Both the position numbers and the translations under genes were made by a program. Below, in pieces: positions 3,112-55,993 of a stretch of DNA of 57,672 bases; position 1 is the stretch's first letter, and each line of letters opens with the position of its first letter. Below the pieces are notes generated by a model that saw only the letters and a list, made by a program, of their open reading frames with translations, was not told the origin of the DNA and did no database searches. Origin of the DNA: Planctomyces sp. SH-PL62 (GTDB lineage: Bacteria > Planctomycetota > Planctomycetia > Planctomycetales > Planctomycetaceae); assembly GCA_945905295.1 (NCBI GenBank), contig CAMDPX010000012.1, positions 1 through 57,672 on the forward strand, read 5' to 3'.

Positions 3112-6069
3112 TCACTGGGACCAGCCGAGCAAACTACGGAATTGGACATCGAGCATCAATTCACGGAACTCGTCGGCTTCCTCGGCCGCCTCGCGATTCA
3201 GCCCGTGTCGAACGCCGATGTTGAGAGTCTCGGCGACGAGTTGCAGGCAATCGTGGCGACTCATGGAAATGCTGTCTGAAGGGATTTGATCGCTTCCGAT
3301 CCGCTTCGCGATGTCGGAGAACTCGACGGCGATGGACCACAAGCGATCGGGGTTTTCGGGCCAAAGTTCACGGCGTCTTAACGCAAGTTGCAGAGCCTTG
3401 TCGAGACGATTTTGCTCGCGGCACACTCGCGCGTAGTTGACGCAGGTGCGGTCGAGAAACTCGCGGTAACGCGGAACCGAGGGTGCGTCCTTGAGCACTT
3501 GATTCTGAATTTTGTACGCCTGCTCGTAAGCCGCCAAAGCGTCGGCGACACGCCGCTGCCCCTCCAACGCCATGCTCAGATTGTTCCAGATACTGCCGAG
3601 GCTGCTGGCATCGTTCAGACTTTCGGGATGCTCGGCGGCCAATTGCTGTTGCATGTCGGCCGCTTGGCGAAAGGCGGACTCGGCTTCCGTCGCTCGGCCG
3701 TCGCGAGCCAACGCGAGACCGAAGTTATTCTGACTGAGCGCTAAGTCGCGGCGATATGCCGTGGACTTTGGCGACGCGGAGAGCAAACGCTGGATCGTCT
3801 CGATCGCTTCCGCGTAGGTTGCGGCGGCGGAAACGTGTTCCCCCAAACGCGACTGCAACGCGCCGAGGTTGTTGAAGGTGAGTGCCAGATCGCGCGCGAG
3901 GTCCGGTTGCTGCGGATGTCGGGTCACGAGCGAACGCAGGATCGACAACGCCTGAGCGTATGACTTGCGAGCCACCTCCGGCGCGCGATCCGCTTCCAGA
4001 GCCGCGATGTTGCCGTGAGTCGCCGCGAGATATCGCCCGGCCAGTTCGTCCTTCTCCGCGTCCGCCAAGCTGGACCGTTTGACGATCTCGCCATGCAGAC
4101 CTACCGCGGACTGATACGCCTCGGCCGCTTCGTCGCGCCGATCCTGCTCGCTGAGCAGCAGTCCGAGATTGTTGTATGAGAGCGCCAAGTCTCGCCGAAA
4201 TCGCAGTTCGCGATCCCGGCGTTGAACCAATCGTCTTTGAAGTTCAATGGCATGACGGAATCGCTTTTCGGCCTCGGCCGTTCGCGAGGTACGGCTCAAC
4301 AACAGTCCGATGTTGTTTTCGCAGAGTGCCTGATTCGCGAGATGCTCGACTTGAGCCGGTTCGTCCTTCGTGAGTTGCTCAAACGCAAGGCGAGCCTCTT
4401 CGTGAGCGGCGAGTGCTTCCTCGTTCGTGCCGACATGCTCAGTCAGCAGCGCGATCTTGTTGAGCGCGGTCGCCAGTTCGCTGCGCAGTCCCCCTTGGCC
4501 GCCCGACTGCTGAATGAAGTCGCGGTAGTAGTCGATCGTGCCCATCAGCAACGACCGCCGAATGTCCTCCGCTCCAGGAACAATCGCGAGTTGATCAGCC
4601 AGTTTTGCTCCGAAGCGGTCCACGACTTCTCGCGCCTGGCGAAAGTTGCGAGTCGCTTCTGCCAGCGCCGCGTCCTTCTTCACCTTCTCGCGATAGATCA
4701 GACCGGCTGCCACGATGCTCGCCACGCTGAGGATCAACAGCATCCCCGCCATTGTCGCGACCGCTCGACGATGACGCTTGACCCACTTACCGAGCCGTTC
4801 GGCAAACGTCGGAGCACGCGCCACGGTCGGCTCACCGGCGAGCACTCGCTCCAAGTCGTCAGCCAAATCTTGAGCGGTGGCATATCGCTCGTCGCGCGAC
4901 GGAGCGATCGCCTTCAAGATCACGTTTTCGAAATCGGCGGGCATGTCCGGAATGAACCAGCGCGGCCGAACGGGGCCTGCTTGTGCGATTTGAATCAGTA
5001 GCTCCGGGCCGTTCGGTTGATCGAAGGCTGGGCGGAGCGTCGCGAGTTCGTACAACGTGATGCCGAGCGAATAGACGTCGGTGCGATGATCGACGAGTGC
5101 CGATTCGCCGCGTGATTGCTCCGGGCTCATGTAGCGCACTGTGCCGACGATGTCCCCGGTGTGGGTCAGCAGGGAATTGGTCTGCCAGCGGGCCAAACCG
5201 AAATCGGCGACCCACGGCTTGCCAGTTCGATCCAGCAACAGATTCGACGGCTTGATGTCGCGATGCACGATGCCGTACTCATGAGCCGCATGAAGCGCTC
5301 TCGCGATTTTTGCTCCGAGGCTCGCGATCTGTGCGAAATACTGCGGCTTGTCCGCCGGGAAATGTTTCAGCACATCGGCACTGTCGTCCGAGCGAAACGT
5401 AGGTTGGGACTCCGTCCCGACCGGATCGGCGTCGCTAAAACGTTCTGGCGGGTCGGGACAGAGTCCCAACCTACGACCCTCTCCGCTCAGCAATTCGATG
5501 ACGCGATCCAATGCCAAGCCGTCGATCAAACGCATGGCGAAGTAATGCACACCGCGATCCTCGCCGACCGCGAAGATCGGGACGATGTGTGGATGCTCTA
5601 GCTGAGCCAGCGCCTGAGCTTCGTTGCGGAACCGTGCGATCTGCTTGGCATCGAGCATCGCCGCGAACGGCAGCACTTTGAGCGCGACCGTCCGGCCCAG
5701 CGACGCCTGCCAGGCTTCATGGACGACCGCCATGCCGCCACGGCCAATCTCGCGAACCAGTCGAAAGTCTCCCAACTGCTGACCGTCGCTCGGATTCTCA
5801 GGATCGACCGGAGTTCCAAAACCGCCGGCCGCCGTCTGGAGAAATTGCAGGCTGTCGAGATATTTTTTGAGATGCTCGGCCAAGTCAGGATGTTGAGCGA
5901 TCAACTCGCCTCGTTCGGAATGTTCGCCGGCTTCCAATCGCAGCAAATACTGATCGAGCACCTGCGCGAGTCGCTGTTGCTGATCCGGAGTCAGCCCCTG
6001 AATGACCGAGATATCGTGGCGGTCGCTGCCAACTCGGCTGATGGGAGAACGCGACGTGGTTCCGCTCAT
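3112..6069 (-). CDS. Membrane Ser/Thr protein kinase with C-terminal TPR repeats
   Basis: 985 residues. A helical N-terminal segment (residues 20-80) precedes the kinase domain (about 101-410): glycine loop GRGGMAVV (109-116), lysine 131 in VALK, HRDIKPSN (269-276), DFG (289-291) and YMSPEQ (313-318), all intact, so active. One transmembrane helix follows (about 437-459), then a long TPR-like region (about 540-950, repeated NNLGLLL / NNFGLAL units), probably extracytoplasmic. It starts in a 4-base ATGA overlap with the ECF sigma gene, so the pair is translationally coupled; coupling of ECF sigma factors to such kinases is known in planctomycetes. Residues 199-224, between the hinge and helix E, are encoded by a 78-bp palindromic insertion. 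Confidence 0.95.
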   Translation of the reverse strand: MSGTTSRSPISRVGSDRHDISVIQGLTPDQQQRLAQVLDQYLLRLEAGEHSERGELIAQHPDLAEHLKKYLDSLQFLQTAAGGFGTPVDPENPSDGQQLGDFRLVREIGRGGMAVVHEAWQASLGRTVALKVLPFAAMLDAKQIARFRNEAQALAQLEHPHIVPIFAVGEDRGVHYFAMRLIDGLALDRVIELLSGEGRRLGLCPDPPERFSDADPVGTESQPTFRSDDSADVLKHFPADKPQYFAQIASLGAKIARALHAAHEYGIVHRDIKPSNLLLDRTGKPWVADFGLARWQTNSLLTHTGDIVGTVRYMSPEQSRGESALVDHRTDVYSLGITLYELATLRPAFDQPNGPELLIQIAQAGPVRPRWFIPDMPADFENVILKAIAPSRDERYATAQDLADDLERVLAGEPTVARAPTFAERLGKWVKRHRRAVATMAGMLLILSVASIVAAGLIYREKVKKDAALAEATRNFRQAREVVDRFGAKLADQLAIVPGAEDIRRSLLMGTIDYYRDFIQQSGGQGGLRSELATALNKIALLTEHVGTNEEALAAHEEARLAFEQLTKDEPAQVEHLANQALCENNIGLLLSRTSRTAEAEKRFRHAIELQRRLVQRRDRELRFRRDLALSYNNLGLLLSEQDRRDEAAEAYQSAVGLHGEIVKRSSLADAEKDELAGRYLAATHGNIAALEADRAPEVARKSYAQALSILRSLVTRHPQQPDLARDLALTFNNLGALQSRLGEHVSAAATYAEAIETIQRLLSASPKSTAYRRDLALSQNNFGLALARDGRATEAESAFRQAADMQQQLAAEHPESLNDASSLGSIWNNLSMALEGQRRVADALAAYEQAYKIQNQVLKDAPSVPRYREFLDRTCVNYARVCREQNRLDKALQLALRRRELWPENPDRLWSIAVEFSDIAKRIGSDQIPSDSISMSRHDCLQLVAETLNIGVRHGLNREAAEEADEFRELMLDVQFRSLLGWSQ
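5398..5475. repeat. In-frame palindromic element (family M) inside the kinase gene
   Basis: Arms 5398-5422 and 5451-5475 (CGTAGGTTGGGACTCCGTCC and on) are reverse complements with one mismatch in 25. The element is 78 bp, exactly 26 codons, and adds residues 199-224 (RRLGLCPD ... VGTESQPT) to the kinase without disturbing either flank. The same family recurs at 55148-55213 inside another gene. Confidence 0.9.
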
Positions 6070-9053: not shown

Positions 9054-9136
9054 GTAGGTCAGGCTTTCCAGCCTGACTCAGCGAGCCAGGAAATCGTGGG
9101 ACCGTCGCAATGGTCAGGCTGGAAAGCCTGACCTAC
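9054..9136. repeat. Perfect 24-bp inverted repeat (family C) between accD and kinase genes
   Basis: Arms 9054-9077 and 9113-9136 (GTAGGTCAGGCTTTCCAGCC plus TGAC) are exact reverse complements around a 35-base loop. The right arm overlaps the end of accD: its CTAC supplies the accD stop codon TAG. On the left it starts 5 bases from the kinase start, so it occupies the kinase leader. Confidence 0.85.
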
Positions 9137-10008: not shown

Positions 10009-10071
10009 GTAGCCTGACTCTCTGAGTCGGGTATTTTTCGGAAAAACTCCCGACTCGGAGAGTCAGGCTAC
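10009..10071. repeat. Inverted repeat (family D) between accD and phosphatase-like gene
   Basis: Arms 10009-10031 and 10049-10071 (GTAGCCTGACTCTCTGAGTC plus GGG) pair with one mismatch in 23. The element abuts the TAA stop of the phosphatase-like gene (10072-10074). A decayed relative lies at 20815-20871. Confidence 0.85.
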
Positions 10072-10698: not shown

Positions 10699-10779
10699 GG
10701 TCGGGAGTCTTTTTCCGGCCGCCGCATTTGATGTCGGAAGTTTTTACGAACAAACGCGGCCGGAAAAAGACTCCCGACC
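10699..10779. repeat. Perfect 22-bp inverted repeat (family E)
   Basis: Arms 10699-10720 and 10758-10779 (GGTCGGGAGTCTTTTTCCGG plus CC) are exact reverse complements around a 37-base loop. It fills the gap between rpe and the phosphatase-like gene. Confidence 0.85.
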
Positions 10780-20687: not shown

Positions 20688-20740
20688 GCGCCTATTCGAG
20701 AAGTCTGTCGCCTGGCTCTCCGAGTCTGTGAATAGATGAC

Positions 20741-20803
20741 GTGGGGCACGTTTTCAACGTGCCCAATCAGCCTGTTTTCGAGCACGTTGAAAACGTGCTC
20801 CAC
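20741..20803. repeat. Palindromic element (family G), copy 1
   Basis: GTGGGGCACGTTTTCAACGT plus GC (20741-20762) pairs with 20782-20803 with one mismatch. The arms themselves contain the shorter palindrome GCACGTTTTCAACGTGC. A second copy is at 50967-51019. It lies downstream of the giant protein and may help end its transcript. Confidence 0.85.
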
Positions 20804-20814
20804 GAAAACTTCAC

Positions 20815-36514: not shown

Positions 36515-36643
36515 GATCCCCACGGATGGCATGGCGATACCACGGATAAAACAGGGCTTCTCGTTTTTCATCCGTGGTATTGCCATGCCATCCGTGGGGC
36601 TTTTAGGGCTCCCTGACAGTTCAATTGCGATCTGTGACACTAG
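36515..36643. repeat. 129-bp element (family F), copy 1, overlapping the ABC ATPase 3' end
   Basis: The palindromic part pairs GATCCCCACGGATGGCATGG (from 36515) with the sequence ending CCATCCGTGGGG near 36600. A conserved non-palindromic tail follows (TCAATTGCGATCTG, then CACTAG at 36643). The copy at 48935-49063 has the same length and tail. The tail supplies the final codons (SSVTDRN) and TGA stop of the ATPase gene. Confidence 0.85.
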
Positions 36644-37615: not shown

Positions 37616-37686
37616 GGCGAGCGGGGCGGCGTCAGCCCCCCGGTTGATTCGGCGCAGAACCGGGGGCTGACGCCGCCCCGCTCGCC
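37616..37686. repeat. Palindromic element (family A), intergenic copy
   Basis: GGCGAGCGGGGCGGCGTCAG... pairs with ...CTGACGCCGCCCCGCTCGCC over about 29 bp with a one-base bulge, around a 13-base loop. It exactly fills the gap between the large membrane protein stop (37691) and the ribosome site of the ATPase gene. Confidence 0.88.
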
Positions 37687-43734: not shown

Positions 43735-43983
43735 TTCTGCTGGCACTCACGAACTCCAAGTGCGGCCACCGTCGGCTTCGCCCCACGGGGCGTGAAATCC
43801 CGTGAGCCGCTGATGTCGCTGGCCAGTCATCAGCCCGCCGGGACGGGCTCGACGGCGGCGATCAACTACGGCATTCGGCATTGGCAGGTTGGCGATTGCG
43901 CGGCACACTGCTCGCAAGCTCGTCGGTCAAGGTGCGAGCACGATGCTCTCACCGGTTCAGATTTCTCTCTGCGAAAGGCGTCG
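43735..43983. other. Spacer before the PQQ-type gene
   Basis: The downstream frame is open back to 43792, but that portion has no ribosome site and odd composition. I regard it as non-coding leader. Confidence 0.4.
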
Positions 43984-46900
43984 ATGATGAGTCGCGTCGC
44001 AGGTCAGTGGAGATGGATGGCGTATCTCGCGGCGACGCTCGCAGGACTGCTGAGCGCGGCCCGGTGCGGAGTGACTCAGGAGCGGGCTGTTCCCCCGCGC
44101 GTGCTGCGGCCGGATCACCCCGATGCCGAGCCCACGATTCCGACGACGGCGGAAGCGACGTTTTATCTCAACAATGACGCCACCTTGCGAAGGTGGCTGA
44201 AGGAAGGCCGGTCGCGTCTCGATGGGGGACAACTCTCGGAAGGACTGACGCAGTGGCAGCGGATTTTGGATCGTGGTGATGACGGCTTCGTCCGTTTGCG
44301 GACCGACGGACCGTGGTTGGAAGTCCGCCACGAAGTGCAGCGCGGTCTGAGCGAACTCCCGCCGAGCGGACAGGCGATCTACGAACGGCTGTTCGGCACT
44401 GCGGCGCGGCAACTGTTGCAACAAAGCGCCGAGACGGGGCGGCCGGTGTTCGCCAGCGAAACGCTGCGGCGGTACTTTCACACGTCGGCTGGATTCGACG
44501 CCGCGAAATGGTTGGCATCACGGTGGCTCGACAAAGGTGAGTCGCGCATGGCGGCGCGGTTGTTCGAGCGACTGTTGACCGAGCCGGCCCATCGCGAACG
44601 AGTCACACCGAACTTGCTGGTGCAGGCGGCGGTTGCACAGCGGCTCGCGGGGAATGAACTCCGCGCGCGGGAACTCTTCGCGACGTTGGGTGAGACGCGC
44701 GTCCGCATCGCGGGTGAAGAGCGTGTGGCGACGCAGTTGGTCGAACAATTTGTCACGCGGCGTACTGAGCTTTCTCCGAAGCCGAGTCCCTCGCGCGAGT
44801 GGCTGGCGGCGGGAGGCGGATTCGGACGCAGTGCGACTTCGTCCGGCAGTATGCCGTGGCTCAAGCCGTTGTGGCCGCCGGTCCCACTGACGACAGATCG
44901 CGCGGCGATTCGAGAATGGCTGGAGTCACAAGACGAGCGCAACATGCAGCAACTGGCGGTCGCGGCGGAACCGTTGATCGTGCGCGGGCAAGTGGTCGTG
45001 CGCGAAATGAACGGACTCGTGGGATTTGATCTGCACACCGGCCGTCGGCTGTGGAGTTATCCGTCAGCGTTGCCTCTGAGCGAATGGTTGCCGCGCGTGA
45101 TGAGTCAAGCGGGCGAAACCAATCGCATCGGCGCGGTGCGTGAGACGCTGGTGACGAATTCGGCGTGCCGCACGATGTCGAGCGATGGCCGGCGCGTCTT
45201 CGCGATCGACGTGCTGCCAAACGAAGGCCCGAAAGATCTGCGAGACGAGTCGGGCAATGATGACTCCGTCAAACGCGAACTGGATGTGTTGACGCAGTTG
45301 GTGGCATTGCCATTGGGAGAGATCACCCTCGGCGCGAACAGCACGGGCGAGACGCCCGTGGCACGGCCGAGGCCGGTGTGGACACTGGATGGCTTGGCCG
45401 CCGCGAGCAAGCTGGGACATCGCGGTTGCGCGGTGCAGTTCTTGGGTCCGCCGGTGGTTGTGGATGACAGTTTGTTTGTGATGGGCGAACTGTTCTCGAT
45501 CGATGAATTCGCGACGGAGAAGAACAATCAAATCTGCCTGATCGCGATTGATGGCTCCAACGGCGAGCCGCTCTGGAGTCAGGGACTCGCGTTGGTCGAT
45601 GAGCCGTTCTTTCGGTTGAAGCAGCGGAGTCGCCGCAATCCAGTGGGCTCGCCGACGGTCGTCGATGGCATGTTGATCTGCCCGACCGATGTGGGATTGA
45701 TTGTCGGCGTGGACTTGGTCACCGGTCGGCAACGTTGGGTTTACAGCTATCGACTGGGTGAGACGGAAAGGCGTGGGGAGTACTTTCCGGAGCCGCTCGG
45801 CTGGGACGGCACGCCGACTTGGCCGGTGATTTATCGCGACCGCGTGCTGCTGCTGTCGCGGTTCTCGGACGAGTTGCATTGCCTCGAAGCCACGACGGGA
45901 AAGCTGGCTTGGCATGTGCCACGTGGCGACGCGGTTTACATCGGCGCGGTGACGGATGATCGCATTGTGTTGGTCGGCGAACGCGAGGTGCGCGCGATCG
46001 CGATGCCGGCGGATGGGACACAAACCAGCGACGCTGTCGAACCAATGTGGTCTCACGTGGTCGGGCCGGTGACCGGCCGAGGCGTGCGGGCCGGTGAGGA
46101 CTTTCTCGTGCCGTTGAAGTCGGGGCGGGTCGCTTGCCTCGAACTGACGACGGGGCGCGATCGGGGCTTCGCCGTGACGCGCACTTTCGATCCGGCGGCC
46201 ATTCGGCGAAGAGCCCGCAAAGTGAATGACGAGGAGGAGGATGATCAGGAACTCGCGCCGTGGCCGGGGAACTTGATTGCGTGCGATGATGTGGTCGTCT
46301 CGCTGGGACTCAGTCATTTGGCGGTGTACCCGCAGGCTCGGTCGAAGTTGGCCGAACTGCGCACTCAGCCGGAATCGGTGGAGCGTCGGCTGCTCGAATC
46401 GGAACTCTCGATGCTGCTCGGTTCGGAAGGCTCGCCGGTGGGCGAGTTGCGGAACGTGTTGCAGCAACCGCTCTCCCCCGAACTGCGCCGGCAAGCGCAA
46501 CGACAACTGCGCGAGTCGTTGTATCTGGAGTTGAATCGCGATCCCGATCAGGCGGACGATCTGTTGCCTCAGCTTGAAAAGCTGGCCGACACGACGGCCG
46601 AGCGAGCGCGCTTGCTGCGCCGCGTGTGCGAAGTCTCGTTGCCGCGCGATCCCGTGCGGACGGTGCGAGCGGCTCGCGATCTGGCCGCATTGTCGCTGGA
46701 CCATGAATTGGAGTTAGACGAGCACGGCGAGCATGTCGTGTCACTCGACACTTGGGCGCGCGGCTATTTGCGGCAGGTGCGAACGCGCGTCGAATCGTCG
46801 CCAGCCGAAGCGGATGCCGTCGATGCCGTGCTGGGGCTCGAACGTGATCGGTTGCAAAAAACGTCTGACCTCGGCGCGCTGCGGCAGTTCGTTCGGCTGT

Positions 46901-48759
46901 GTGACGATTGGCCGCAAGCGACTGGCGCGCGGTTCCGGTTGGTGGATTTGCTGATCGAACGCGGCGAGTTTCAAGAGGCGGAGTTGCTGCTGGTGCGCGA
47001 CCGGTTATCTGCCGATGTGGTCGTTGCGGGCAACGCGACTGCTCGACTGTTGCGGCTGTGGGAGCACGTCGGGTTGTATTCTCTCGCCGCGAATTTGCTG
47101 AGCGAATTGGAAGAGCGGTTCGGTGACGTTGAGTTGACTGTTGCATCAGGCGAGCGGGGCGGCGTCAGCCCCCCGGTGTCTTTGCCGAAGGCTGGTCCGG
47201 TCTCCGCGCCGAACACCGGGGGGCTGACGCCGCCCCGCTCGCCTGGGATGACGGGACGCGAGTTTGTCGCGGCGTTTTCGCGAGACTCGATGACGTGGCA
47301 GGCATTTGCTCGGAAGCGGCGGCCGGATTGGGATGTGCGGCGTGTCGTGATTTCAGAAGACCGCGCACGGGGCGGCGAGTTACGTCTGGCCGAGGCCTTT
47401 GGGAACGGCGAACCCCGCAATCGAGCGTTGGACCGCGCGGGCGTGGGCGTCCATCTTTTCCAAACGCCACCGCTGCTCAAACCGCTGGGGGACGCCGGCT
47501 GGCGCATCGTTGATCGGGACTCCGGCGTCGTGATGGGACAGTTGCCCGAATTGGATCGCTTCTATCCGACGGCTCTGCAACCGGGGTCGCCCAAATCCGT
47601 CAATCACTTCTTCCCGGTCGGTGGTCAAGGACGAATGCTGGGGTTCTCGCTGTTGGGCCGCGATCAAGAAGACCCGGCTTGGGAGACGCCGTTCACACCG
47701 TTGCACGCGACGCAAGAGTTTCTGCGCGTTGGCCCGGTCGGGCCGAGCTATTGCGTGTTTCAATCGCGGCAGCATTTGGTGATGGTCGATCCGGCCACCG
47801 GCCGCATCGCGTGGCGGCGCGAATTAGAACCACATGCGGGATTACTTGCCGAAACGGACACCGGTCTGTTCGGCGATCGCGAAGCGCTCGTCGTGTTTGG
47901 CGCGGACCAAGCCTCGTACACCGTCTTCGAGACCGCGACCGGCCGTGAACTCCGTCGCGGGAAGTTGCCGGTCGATCAGCATCAGACGCGGCGCGCGTTT
48001 GGCCGCAAGCTGTTTCACATCACCGATGCCAACAACGGTCGCCGCATGCGCATTTGGGATTCGTTGACCGATCGCAACGAGCTGGACGAGCCTCTGGCGG
48101 TCGGAGTTGCCGTCTTCCAGCCGACCGTGACGGTGGATGGCGAACTGCTGCTGGTTTTACGCTCCGGCCGCGTGCGCGTGATCGATGTTTACAACTCGCT
48201 GGTCAAGCTGGACGTCACGCTTCCCGAATCGGACGTGCGCGGTTCGAACACGCTGCGCGCGTTCTCGGATCGCGATCGCTACTACCTCAACCTGCAACGG
48301 CAGCTCGACAACTCTGGAAATTCGCCGTTCAGCTATTTCGTCAGCGATTCGCTGGTTCCGAAATCCGAAGTGCTGGGTGATCTGCACGCCTTCGCTCGGC
48401 CGAGCCAGCCGCAACCGCTCGACCGCGCCGCGGGACCGCTGGGCGAGAAACTGTGGCTGCGCGTCCTGCCGCAACGGACGATTCTGCGGTTGGACAATGC
48501 TCGCGTGCCGTTCCTGGTCGCGATCAGCCGGCAGCAGGATCGCACCCGCACGGACAAATCGGCGCTGCGTGTCGAAGCGCTCGACGCGCTCACCGGTAAC
48601 CAGCTTGGCGTTTGCGAGCATGTGCTCACGACTCGGATCGTGCAAACTCAGCATGATCCCGAAGCTTCCCGCCTCACGCTGATCGGTTTGACGACGCGGA
48701 TCACGCTGGATTACGGCCAAGACAAGCAACGGTTCGCGACGGTGTCTGATCCGCATTGA
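43984..48759 (+). CDS. Large secreted PQQ-type beta-propeller / TPR-like protein
   Basis: 1,591 residues from the ATG at 43984 (a second ATG follows at once), with AAAGG upstream and a signal peptide (WMAYLAATLAGLLSA). An N-terminal helical part (LNNDATLRRWLKEGRSRL) is followed by PQQ-like propeller blades: GLVGFDLHTGRRLWSY, IAIDGSNGEPLWSQ, GVDLVTGRQRWVY, LHCLEATTGKLAWHV and, late, MVDPATGRIAWRRE. A helical TPR-like section lies between (about 830-1050). PQQ cofactor binding is not shown; many such planctomycete proteins are structural propellers. Residues about 1056-1086 (ERGGVSPP ... GGLTPPRSP) are encoded by an inserted palindrome. Confidence 0.88.
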   Translation: MMSRVAGQWRWMAYLAATLAGLLSAARCGVTQERAVPPRVLRPDHPDAEPTIPTTAEATFYLNNDATLRRWLKEGRSRLDGGQLSEGLTQWQRILDRGDDGFVRLRTDGPWLEVRHEVQRGLSELPPSGQAIYERLFGTAARQLLQQSAETGRPVFASETLRRYFHTSAGFDAAKWLASRWLDKGESRMAARLFERLLTEPAHRERVTPNLLVQAAVAQRLAGNELRARELFATLGETRVRIAGEERVATQLVEQFVTRRTELSPKPSPSREWLAAGGGFGRSATSSGSMPWLKPLWPPVPLTTDRAAIREWLESQDERNMQQLAVAAEPLIVRGQVVVREMNGLVGFDLHTGRRLWSYPSALPLSEWLPRVMSQAGETNRIGAVRETLVTNSACRTMSSDGRRVFAIDVLPNEGPKDLRDESGNDDSVKRELDVLTQLVALPLGEITLGANSTGETPVARPRPVWTLDGLAAASKLGHRGCAVQFLGPPVVVDDSLFVMGELFSIDEFATEKNNQICLIAIDGSNGEPLWSQGLALVDEPFFRLKQRSRRNPVGSPTVVDGMLICPTDVGLIVGVDLVTGRQRWVYSYRLGETERRGEYFPEPLGWDGTPTWPVIYRDRVLLLSRFSDELHCLEATTGKLAWHVPRGDAVYIGAVTDDRIVLVGEREVRAIAMPADGTQTSDAVEPMWSHVVGPVTGRGVRAGEDFLVPLKSGRVACLELTTGRDRGFAVTRTFDPAAIRRRARKVNDEEEDDQELAPWPGNLIACDDVVVSLGLSHLAVYPQARSKLAELRTQPESVERRLLESELSMLLGSEGSPVGELRNVLQQPLSPELRRQAQRQLRESLYLELNRDPDQADDLLPQLEKLADTTAERARLLRRVCEVSLPRDPVRTVRAARDLAALSLDHELELDEHGEHVVSLDTWARGYLRQVRTRVESSPAEADAVDAVLGLERDRLQKTSDLGALRQFVRLCDDWPQATGARFRLVDLLIERGEFQEAELLLVRDRLSADVVVAGNATARLLRLWEHVGLYSLAANLLSELEERFGDVELTVASGERGGVSPPVSLPKAGPVSAPNTGGLTPPRSPGMTGREFVAAFSRDSMTWQAFARKRRPDWDVRRVVISEDRARGGELRLAEAFGNGEPRNRALDRAGVGVHLFQTPPLLKPLGDAGWRIVDRDSGVVMGQLPELDRFYPTALQPGSPKSVNHFFPVGGQGRMLGFSLLGRDQEDPAWETPFTPLHATQEFLRVGPVGPSYCVFQSRQHLVMVDPATGRIAWRRELEPHAGLLAETDTGLFGDREALVVFGADQASYTVFETATGRELRRGKLPVDQHQTRRAFGRKLFHITDANNGRRMRIWDSLTDRNELDEPLAVGVAVFQPTVTVDGELLLVLRSGRVRVIDVYNSLVKLDVTLPESDVRGSNTLRAFSDRDRYYLNLQRQLDNSGNSPFSYFVSDSLVPKSEVLGDLHAFARPSQPQPLDRAAGPLGEKLWLRVLPQRTILRLDNARVPFLVAISRQQDRTRTDKSALRVEALDALTGNQLGVCEHVLTTRIVQTQHDPEASRLTLIGLTTRITLDYGQDKQRFATVSDPH
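47149..47243. repeat. In-frame palindromic element (family A) inside the PQQ-type gene
   Basis: Arms 47149-47179 and 47213-47243 are perfect 31-bp reverse complements around a 33-base loop. They encode a Gly/Pro-rich insert (GERGGVSPPV ... GGLTPPRSP) between two helical segments, without a stop or frame change. The same sequence is intergenic at 37616-37686 and 48773. Confidence 0.9.
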
Positions 48760-48830: not shown

Positions 48831-49144
48831 CCCAATGGCACTCACTTTGAGCGGAATGGCGCTAGCGCCACAACTCAGAATTGATCGATCACCAGAGCCG
48901 CCGCTGCCGTTGAGAAAGTGCTTCTTTGGTCGAAGATCCCCACGGATGGCATGGCAATACCACGGATGGAGGGCAAGGGATCTTGCTTGATCCGAGGTAT
49001 TGCCATGCCATCCGTGGGGATTGTTGCTCTTCATGACAGGTCAATTGCGATCTGCGGCACTAGCCACCGGTGATTCGGGATCGACGTTATCCGGCGAATG
49101 ACCGGCGGCTAGCGCGTGCCGCTCACAAAGCGAGTGCCATTGGG
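48831..49144. mobile_element. MITE-like insertion with 13-bp terminal inverted repeats and 6-bp target duplication
   Basis: Ends are CCCAATGGCACTC and GAGTGCCATTGGG, an exact 13-bp inverted pair; pairing continues imperfectly for about 38 bp and includes the family B core GGCGCTAGCGCC/GGCGGCTAGCGC. CTGACG flanks both sides (48825-48830 and 49145-49150). It has no open frame for a transposase, so movement would need an enzyme from elsewhere. It encloses a family F copy. Confidence 0.75.
48935..49063. repeat. 129-bp element (family F), copy 2
   Basis: It matches 36515-36643 in length, palindrome (GATCCCCACGGATGGCATGG ... CCATCCGTGGGG) and tail (TCAATTGCGATCTGCGGCAC, then TAG). Only the loop differs strongly. 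Confidence 0.85.
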
Positions 49145-50966: not shown

Positions 50967-51019
50967 GTGGGGCACGTTTTCAACGTGCCCGTGATGAGCA
51001 CGTTGAAAACGTGCTCCAC
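50967..51019. repeat. Palindromic element (family G), copy 2
   Basis: GTGGGGCACGTTTTCAACGT plus GC (50967-50988) pairs with 50998-51019 with one mismatch. The arms are the same as those at 20741-20803; only the loop is shorter. It follows the PAS-GAF-receiver stop by 7 bases. Confidence 0.85.
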
Positions 51020-54931: not shown

Positions 54932-55993
54932 ATGTCCGACGTCCGCACGATTCGCGTCTTCATCGCCTCGCCGGGTGATTTGGCGGTGGAGCGTGCGGCG
55001 TTCAAGCAGGTGCTGGAAGAACTCAACGCCGGCTTTGGCGACGCGCTGGACCTCACGTTCGAGCCGCTCGGCTGGGAGGACACGTTGGCCTCGACGGGGA
55101 GGCGGTCGCAGGAGGTGATCAATCGGGAGATTGACCGCTGCGCTGCCCGTAGGTTGGGACTCCGTCCCGACCGTGTTCGCATCCGGACGGTCGGGACGGA
55201 GTCCCAACCTACGAGATCGGCGTCGATGGCCGACGCTGGCCCGCAGCTTCAGAAGGTGCTCAAGTTCCACAAGTCGCTCGAAGAGTCGCGGCAGCTGCTG
55301 TCTCACGGGTTCGCGAATGAGGCCGAGTTCAAAGCGGAGGTGGACCGTCACCTGCGAGCGTTCGCCAAGGGGGAGTTGCCGCCGGCCAACGCTCCGCGCA
55401 ACAAGGTGCTCTTGCCGCTCGCGGTCCTCGCCGAGGTGCAGAAGGAGAAGGCCGAGAAGGAACAAGCCTTGGCCCGCGCCGAGCGTGAGCATCAATTGGC
55501 GGAGGCGGCGCGAGTTTCGGCAAGTAGTCGAATGGCGATGGAATTCTTGCGGGACCACTCTGGCCTCCCGATGGGAGAACCTAGCCAGGTCCAGTTCACC
55601 ATGCACTTCAAAAACGAAATGTTTGCCCTGTTGGATGGCGCTCTTTTCCGCGAGGCAGGTGATCCAGAGCGTTTGAGCTACCCCGCAGATCACCCGCTCG
55701 CAGGGGAACTGGAAGAGCAGATGACCGCCCTGATTCGGGAGTACGTCGGCCAGGGGGAGTACCTTTCACCCCACGCACCGGAAGAGACGGGAGCCCATGA
55801 CGACGCCTGTATGAATGACGCTGACTCTCGACTGTTTGGGGGCGAACCGTGCCCCCATCGGCTCGATTCTCTTCTTCTGATTCTCGGATTTTGTTTTTCT
55901 CTGCGATACAATGGGAATCGGCGAAAACACGATTTCCAGTTTTCCATACACCATGCTACTTTTGCGGATTCTGTCCATAATGGACATCGTTAG
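54932..55993 (+). CDS. Chimeric DUF4062-type protein
   Basis: 353 residues, GGAG 8 bases before the ATG. Residues 1-71 are a DUF4062 start (RVFIASPGDLAVERAAFKQV, GWEDTLASTGRRSQEVINRE, IDRCA). The family normally continues after IDxC with a buried strand and glycine-rich end; here it breaks off at residue 72 into a 22-residue palindrome-coded insert (RRLGLRPD ... VGTESQPT, 73-94). The helical, charged region that follows (KSLEESRQLLSHGFANEAEF) is also present as a fragment at 53441. Residues after about 300 look non-native and run up to the next gene. DUF4062 commonly heads STAND-type NTPases in defence loci; function here is uncertain. Confidence 0.75.
   Translation: MSDVRTIRVFIASPGDLAVERAAFKQVLEELNAGFGDALDLTFEPLGWEDTLASTGRRSQEVINREIDRCAARRLGLRPDRVRIRTVGTESQPTRSASMADAGPQLQKVLKFHKSLEESRQLLSHGFANEAEFKAEVDRHLRAFAKGELPPANAPRNKVLLPLAVLAEVQKEKAEKEQALARAEREHQLAEAARVSASSRMAMEFLRDHSGLPMGEPSQVQFTMHFKNEMFALLDGALFREAGDPERLSYPADHPLAGELEEQMTALIREYVGQGEYLSPHAPEETGAHDDACMNDADSRLFGGEPCPHRLDSLLLILGFCFSLRYNGNRRKHDFQFSIHHATFADSVHNGHR
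55148..55213. repeat. In-frame palindromic element (family M) inside the DUF4062 gene
   Basis: Arms 55148-55172 and 55189-55213 are perfect 25-bp reverse complements around a 16-base loop; 66 bp, exactly 22 codons. It is read in the same phase as the copy in the kinase gene, giving RRLGLRPD and VGTESQPT. Confidence 0.9.

Follow-up and report, generated by a model that had tools for sequence, protein, structure and literature searches.

The 57,672-nucleotide window analyzed here (Planctomyces sp. SH-PL62, GenBank assembly GCA_945905295.1, contig CAMDPX010000012.1, positions 1 to 57,672) carries two copies of an unusually gene-invading REPIN family. Each copy consists of two inverted arms with GTAG at the outer ends and is read in frame as part of a protein. 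By anatomy the arm is a GTAG-tagged hairpin of the repetitive extragenic palindrome (REP) type, and the inverted pairs are REPINs. The window is contig C12 of an 8.60-Mb assembly in 476 contigs, called G000 below; other genomes, contigs, and loci are cited by our G, C, and L numbers. The two copies, their peptides, and their host genes are as follows.

5398..5475: REPIN copy 1, inverted REP arms 5398-5422 and 5451-5475 around a 28-nt spacer
5398..5475, read on the minus strand of host gene 1: copy 1 peptide RRLGLCPD-PPERFSDADP-VGTESQPT
3112..6069, minus strand: host gene 1, Ser/Thr protein kinase with tetratricopeptide repeats (TPRs), 985 aa (PF00069, E value of 2.8e-36, plus TPR families)
55148..55213: REPIN copy 2, arms 55148-55174 and 55187-55213, 27/27 positions complementary, 12-nt gap
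55148..55213, read on the plus strand of host gene 2: copy 2 peptide RRLGLRPD-RVRIRT-VGTESQPT
54932..55993, plus strand: host gene 2, open reading frame (ORF) derived from a DUF4062 gene, with the REPIN where intact relatives have 57 domain codons

Both palindromes were found where the initial annotation had placed them, and translation bore out the in-frame peptides it had read from them. Both copies are open, and the arms of copy 1 are complementary at 24 of 25 positions. In the kinase, the element follows the segment LDRVIELLSGEG and precedes the segment leading to HRDIKPSN. The 24-nt arm has four matches in the window at up to 3 mismatches, compared with none in 100 shuffles. The lengths had been given as multiples of three, which holds only if the count takes in an additional flanking base at either end (78 and 66 nt); measured from GTAG to CTAC, the copies are 76 and 64 nt long. 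The arrangement of host gene 2 recurs in G000 on contig C331 (L113) and in G005 (L416).

The arm, GTAGGTTGGGACTC(C/T)GTCCCGACC, has the GTAG head, a 9-bp stem including one T-G pair, and a 3-nt loop, the last G of GTAG serving in the first stem pair. GTAG starts 459 of 478 arms collected from all stretches fetched up to that point, at up to 5 mismatches to a consensus that itself includes GTAG. Stem pair 11-17 shows two-sided changes to T-A in 43 arms and one-sided changes in 6, and for pair 12-16 the counts are 18 and 5, respectively; these counts are of sequences, not events, and the two covarying pairs define two subtypes. The covariation fits recognition of the arm in a folded, single-stranded form. 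Of the 115 units in the G000 stretches that were fetched, 102 are inverted pairs with the GTAG heads at the outer ends; the other 13 are single arms, which were left out of pair counts, and arms more than 160 nt apart were not joined into pairs. Spacers range from 0 to 84 nt and are mostly unrelated in sequence.

A search of the whole G000 genome with the arm gave 129 + 136 matches at up to 2 mismatches and none with a reversed-pattern control, which agrees with the dispersed palindromic family that had been proposed from the two window copies. Exact-core pairs in G000 number 53 + 24 + 10 by gap class. The arm was found in all 12 genomes of the genus, G000 included, and was absent from all 47 searched genomes outside it. 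A scan of public genome contigs returned at least 98 stretches with the arm under titles naming planctomycetes. Some titles bear other genus names (Kuenenia, Anammoximicrobium, Planctomyces, names as in the titles), so with the matches listed a restriction to one genus is not proven.

Rickettsia palindromic elements are palindromes that sit in frame inside apparently functional genes, and the initial annotation had named them as the known analogy. The in-frame insertion into genes is shared with them; the CGTC tag is not, the head being GTAG. The features found instead place the element in the GTAG REP/REPIN class with a REP-associated tyrosine transposase (RAYT): a GTAG head, a pairing constraint on the stem-loop at two inner pairs, an excess of doublets over singlets, and a RAYT gene flanked by the same REP. 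Extragenic location, another mark of REPINs, does not apply, as 42 of 102 pairs lie in frame in genes. It is not strictly defining, because intragenic GTAG REPs have been described (PMC3733652).

The coding status of the flanks of the 102 pairs was determined over up to 240 nt per side with a hexamer model trained on long ORFs of the window and the fetched stretches. Both sides are coding in 55 pairs, and 44 of these share strand and phase. The frame is open through the element in 42 of the 44; in the other two, the GTAG head gives a stop. Among the 52 pairs with both flanks coding on one strand, 44 have the same phase on both sides, where one-third is expected (p = 3e-14), so that copies in genes do keep the frame beyond chance, as had been proposed. 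The 42 include four paralogue pairs that share one insertion each (L026/L120, L037/L098, L038/L129, and the window copy/L113) and thus represent about 38 events. Their lengths leave remainders of 1, 2, and 0 modulo 3 in 20, 16, and 6 cases, which means that the frame is not kept by element length and rules out a fixed length or a fixed duplication as its source. The proposed frame-preserving insertion therefore stands as regards the frame excess and fails as regards a fixed insert length, and several elements stand at positions where congeners have host codons. Because the frame is kept at any spacer length, we had also suspected two 24-bp inserts around host DNA; this was rejected, since congeners without the element are also without the spacer (EKSA in leucyl-tRNA synthetase [LeuRS] and NGSP at L061).

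In the 42 in-frame copies, the left arm is read as xRLGLRPD (24 copies) or VGWDSVPT (18 copies), and the right arm as VGTESQPT (27), GRDGVPTY (11), or SGRSPNLR (4), with a bias toward VGTESQPT (p = 5e-5). Spacer peptides are more hydrophilic in the frame used than in the other frames (mean grand average of hydropathy of -1.17 versus -0.59, n = 32, p = 0.006). The hosts include LeuRS, the phenylalanyl-tRNA synthetase beta subunit (PheT), protein kinases, a DUF1592 protein, a SecA-like protein, and a xylose-isomerase-like barrel. In a sequence-level comparison with known structures of LeuRS and PheT, the LeuRS insert falls in a stretch that is missing from the solved 3ziu enzyme, query position 79 corresponding to residue 406 and query position 172 to residue 409.

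Orthologous sites show that the insert is not universal. The G010 kinase orthologue, 86% identical in the matched stretch, has nine residues (ARLAETDLA) at the site of copy 1 and lacks the insert. A universally ancestral insert and a missing in-frame excess had been set beforehand as outcomes that count against the proposal, and neither was found. We compared 33 of the 42 G000 loci with five congeners, and 30 gave orthologous intervals; at L033, L069, and L096 no orthologous interval passed the filters. Four more loci (LeuRS, PheT, isomerase-like, and DUF1592) were compared with up to eleven congeners, and the SecA-like locus L059 (PF07517) was left unused, its congener matches being weak (about 39 to 49% identity). 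After rows below the identity filters and duplicate rows had been dropped, the interval length was a multiple of three in 58 of 58 cases in the first set and in 46 of 49 in the second, the three exceptions being two frameshifted DUF4062 relatives and one kinase fragment.

Many of these orthologous loops are themselves palindromic. Of the 83 loops of at least 30 nt, 58 (34/50 and 24/33) hold an inverted repeat at p ≤ 0.01 against 200 single-base shuffles; palindromes at the L105 locus in G006 and G010 reached only p = 0.020 and 0.015 and were not counted. A repeat score of 16 was reached in 52 of the 83 loops, compared with three such repeats in the 50 kb of coding DNA in the window. When the rows were read by eye, 18 of the 58 palindromic loops had the arm family described above (family A) and 40 had other palindromes. 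These loops are not all independent, G002 and G010 sharing one at L092, and the loci were chosen for carrying the element in G000, so the counts indicate reuse of tolerant loops, not of loops in general. At the PheT site, read by eye, three species have family A, four have other inserts, and five are short. At the DUF1592 locus, the left boundaries vary among species, which argues for separate insertions.

Two sets of orthologues were noted at such boundaries. L442 (G010) and L441 (G006), which are orthologous to the L105:4635 locus, retain the right arm of family A (VGTESQPT) but have a different, palindrome-like sequence in place of the left one; they could be a snapshot of one family overwriting another. 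L436 (G005) and L437 (G006), which are orthologous to the L039:1498 locus, have the arm GTAGGTTGGGCACTCTTGCCCGACC at the same boundary, with the outer stem of family A and a different inner stem and loop.

Elements at several sites stand in the place of host codons. Congeners have PSDNSK at the PheT site, in addition to the LeuRS and L061 residues given above, and at L125 three congeners have a common stretch of 36 residues where G000 has the element. The second window copy had been called an insert in a DUF4062 gene; the comparison shows replacement instead, as the intact G002 and G010 relatives have 171 nt between the same anchors, or 57 codons at the site at 55148, against 25 in the window gene. 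PF13271 is matched by the intact relative in G010 (E value of 2.1e-11) but not by the window gene, from which we conclude that the gene at 54932..55993 has probably lost its DUF4062 domain. DUF4062 genes are multicopy in G002 (L445/L447) and G010 (L444/L446), frameshifted copies included.

The arms are conserved far more closely than their surroundings. We compared 27 pairs of corresponding copies, 22 between species and 5 between paralogues, picked by reading the peptides and then accepted at up to 8 mismatches per arm. Over these pairs, identity is 1267/1296 (97.8%) in the arms, 4157/4848 (85.7%) in 90 nt of coding flank, and 439/576 aligned positions (76.2%) in the spacers; unrelated spacers aligned by the same method are identical at 594/1285 positions (46%). 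Arms exceed flanks in 27 of 27 pairs, and a first set of 14 pairs gave the same picture. Among loops of at least 45 nt, 18 match family A at up to 3 mismatches per arm, three are mixed (6/10, 7/0, and 8/1 mismatches), and the rest have at least 8 mismatches in both arms. The arm identity together with this split into two groups implies that the exact arm sequence is maintained by copying, conversion, or selection. Judged from these alignments, the arm sequence appears to be maintained in place while the gene around it drifts.

G000 has thirteen Y1_Tnp matches. The genes on contigs C225 and C147 encode 269-aa proteins and have family-A arms all around, and each gene itself holds one arm in frame near the N terminus, read VGTESQPT. 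The C225 protein matches NF047646 (REP-associated tyrosine transposase) with an E value of 9.8e-16 and Y1_Tnp with 25 bits, barely over the cutoff of 23. HVH and a candidate tyrosine were spotted by eye in the RAYT-type proteins. Several further Y1 genes adjoin other palindromes; at L050 and L051, no palindrome was found beside the Y1 gene. The Y1 transposase gene on C115 has GGGGTCGGGAGTCTTTTTC(A/T)GGCCGCC on both flanks, a family with 139 + 140 matches in G000, 61 + 71 in G010, and 51 + 46 in G002 (controls, 0). RAYT copy number as the cause of REPIN copy number found no support across the genus. We also noted a 327-aa protein of the Y1/RAYT type (L054, on G000 contig C288); its C-terminal part has a match to the end of DnaA model TIGR00362 (E value of 1.2e-7, far below the cutoff). 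We know of no biochemistry of a planctomycete RAYT enzyme, although no dedicated literature search was made.

The window holds palindromes of other families as well.

47147..47245: in-gene palindrome of another family, 99 nt with 33-nt perfect arms, in frame in the gene at 43792-48759
10699..10779: intergenic copy of a second family (GGTCGGGAGTCTTTTTCNGGCCGC); the same family flanks the C115 Y1 transposase gene on both sides
9054..9136: intergenic copy of a further family with a GTAG head (GTAGGTCAGGCTTTCCAGCCTGAC); loops of G007 and G010 contain a related arm (VGQPFQAD...)

The palindrome at 47147-47245 is read as GERGGVSPPV...NTGGLTPPRSP, and similar arms lie in orthologous loops of G007 at L092 and G010 at L002; a palindrome resembling it is intergenic at 37616-37686. 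The window has 13 intergenic inverted repeats of several distinct families, for example at 1345-1409, 9054-9136, 10009-10071, 20740-20804, 36518-36599, 48936-49021, and 50967-51019.

We consider it probable that the element is a REPIN, that a single-tyrosine HUH transposase, the RAYT, handles it and inserts it in and between genes, and that it is kept in tolerant loops while its arms are homogenized. The REPIN, two inverted GTAG-headed REP hairpins, would be nonautonomous, with its RAYT encoded in the same genome amid the same arms, and would insert into genes as well as intergenic DNA. Copies in genes would pass selection if the loop is tolerant, if the frame is kept in net, and if the left arm lies in one of its two open phases, the third phase giving the TAG stop of the head. 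Such a loop may then be a long-lived niche in which the spacer drifts as a hydrophilic linker and the host loop codons around the element are lost, and in other species the same loop may hold palindromes of other families. The arms would be recopied or strongly conserved in place, possibly by RAYT-guided or recombinational homogenization among copies. Transposition by this RAYT, the order in which insertions and losses took place, and the reason why the arms are conserved are our inferences. A wider claim is offered only tentatively: that variable protein loops in this genus permanently house a community of roughly a dozen or more palindromic mobile families, which displace one another, replace host codons, have their ends kept by RAYT-guided homogenization, and are a main generator of loop sequence in essential and regulatory proteins.

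Several observations weigh against this REPIN-RAYT explanation. No movement of the element was observed. The NF047646 score of the C225 protein, 58 bits, is below the curated cutoff of 80. Outside G000, close matches to the family-A RAYT (RAYT A, at least 93% identity) are pieces only, in G007 and G005; G006 and G010, with about 60 and 50 arm matches per strand, have weak relatives only, and 4 of the 12 genomes have no RAYT A match. Three of the 12 genomes thus have a close RAYT A, two of these in pieces, and not every genome that holds the REP does, in a set of incomplete genomes (G010, 89% complete; G006, 91%). With RAYT A so patchy, upkeep of the arms by it is not established in those genomes. 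All the genomes are fragmented. The outermost stem pair, 4-24, has 39 one-sided and no two-sided changes, and the variation at the remaining stem pairs is too slight to speak for pairing. The spacers differ in length and sequence, unlike those of Pseudomonas fluorescens REPINs. That the sites are loops was deduced from alignments rather than from structures of the proteins themselves. Among the 27 pairs, three (L064, L139, and the DUF1592 paralogues) have spacers little above the unrelated level and may be separate insertions, and in four pairs (PheT and isomerase-like) the spacer is too short to judge. Leaving out the three doubtful pairs, the arms (1128/1152) still exceed the flanks (3735/4308), in 24 of 24 pairs.

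The arm conservation could also come from purifying selection on a hairpin that is useful to the host as DNA or mRNA, for transcript stability, translational pausing, or nucleoid or gyrase binding, with mobility incidental. The excess of arms over flanks in all 27 pairs, including those with species that gave no close RAYT A match, and the covariation of two stem pairs speak for such recruitment. We nevertheless regard it as unlikely, since the same loops are short or hold another palindrome in sister species, where a conserved site function should not switch family, and since the exact arm sequence is conserved beyond the needs of pairing. Alternatively, as proposed for the Rickettsia palindromic elements, selection could have filtered plain mobile relics, neutral remnants in tolerant loops, which would need no upkeep in place, arm identity then reflecting recent insertion. 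The frame excess, the absence of the insert from a close relative, and the three pairs that are perhaps separate insertions would suit them. However, most spacers at shared sites are related (76% versus 46% for unrelated ones), yet the arms are 97.8% identical next to flanks that differ by 14%, and the arm matches in loops fall into two groups (up to 3 or at least 8 mismatches, with three mixed), which makes this account rather improbable.

Gene exchange is a different way to make arms look young and sites shared: homologous recombination between congeners would transfer loops together with their palindromes. The sharing of loops by different families across the genus fits it, and at L121 the spacers agree more closely (40/43) than the flanks do (132/180). 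But recombination tracts would carry the flanks too, and in each of the 27 pairs the adjacent flanks agree less well than the arms; with the left boundaries differing among species at the DUF1592 locus, we consider exchange very unlikely. An assembly or binning artefact of draft genomes could be suspected from the fragmentation of G000 (476 contigs) and of its relatives (about 210 to 1710 contigs). It is scarcely credible, as the arms occur in 12 separate genomes and corresponding insertions are found across species with drifted spacers and open frames. The 24-nt arms are also shorter than sequencing reads.

The REPIN class, its presence in planctomycetes, and intragenic REP dimers are already known (PMC3733652). 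GTAG REPs have been reported from Planctomycetes (R. baltica), and intragenic GTAG REP dimers have been described, most of them in O. terrae (PMC3733652). As here, those REPs have GTAG outside, mostly a 6- to 9-bp stem, and a short loop, form dimers, and give intragenic inserts of 20 to 30 aa, and GTAG can supply a stop; unlike here, the HH dimers have conserved spacers as a rule of thumb (PMC3733652). Different REPs occur at about one site in Xanthomonas recB; in the available parts of that paper, we found no arm conservation at shared in-gene sites, no host codon replacement, and no multifamily loops beyond recB (PMC3733652). The REPINs of P. fluorescens are likewise inverted short REP palindromes with high copy number and a specific RAYT association (PMC3116915). 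In strain SBW25, REP doublet distances peak at 71 and 110 bp, and the commonest REP 16-mers occur 1,067 times, only 14 of them overlapping genes (PMC3116915). Here, 42 of 102 pairs are in frame in genes and spacers range from 0 to 84 nt. In REPtron Sm of Stenotrophomonas maltophilia, GTAG directly precedes an 8-bp perfect stem with a 3-nt loop, compared with the 9-bp stem and 3-nt loop of our arm, and that REP is cut as a single strand by its own TnpA-REP (PMC8266576).

Three features are unusual here, as far as our searches reach: how large a fraction of the copies lies in genes, how many families occupy the same loops across a genus, and how well the arms are conserved at shared in-gene sites. 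We found no report of many-family loop occupation or in-gene arm conservation in the open-license PMC literature, which leaves most subscription papers and bioRxiv preprints outside. Mobile palindromes that are mostly intergenic in well-studied bacteria recur in frame in variable loops of planctomycete proteins, including two tRNA-charging enzymes. Rickettsia palindromic elements are CGTC tagged and have no associated transposase genes (PMC3733652), so for those coding palindromes it is hard to ask what moves them. In these planctomycetes, in-frame palindromes in genes are GTAG tagged and RAYT-type genes stand among the arms, so that a Rickettsia-like lifestyle is joined to genes with relatives studied in vitro (PMC8266576). 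The family raises the question of how its arms can remain unchanged in genes that drift, and it allows the repeated remodeling of loops by mobile DNA, in enzymes such as leucyl- and phenylalanyl-tRNA synthetase, to be measured within a single genus.

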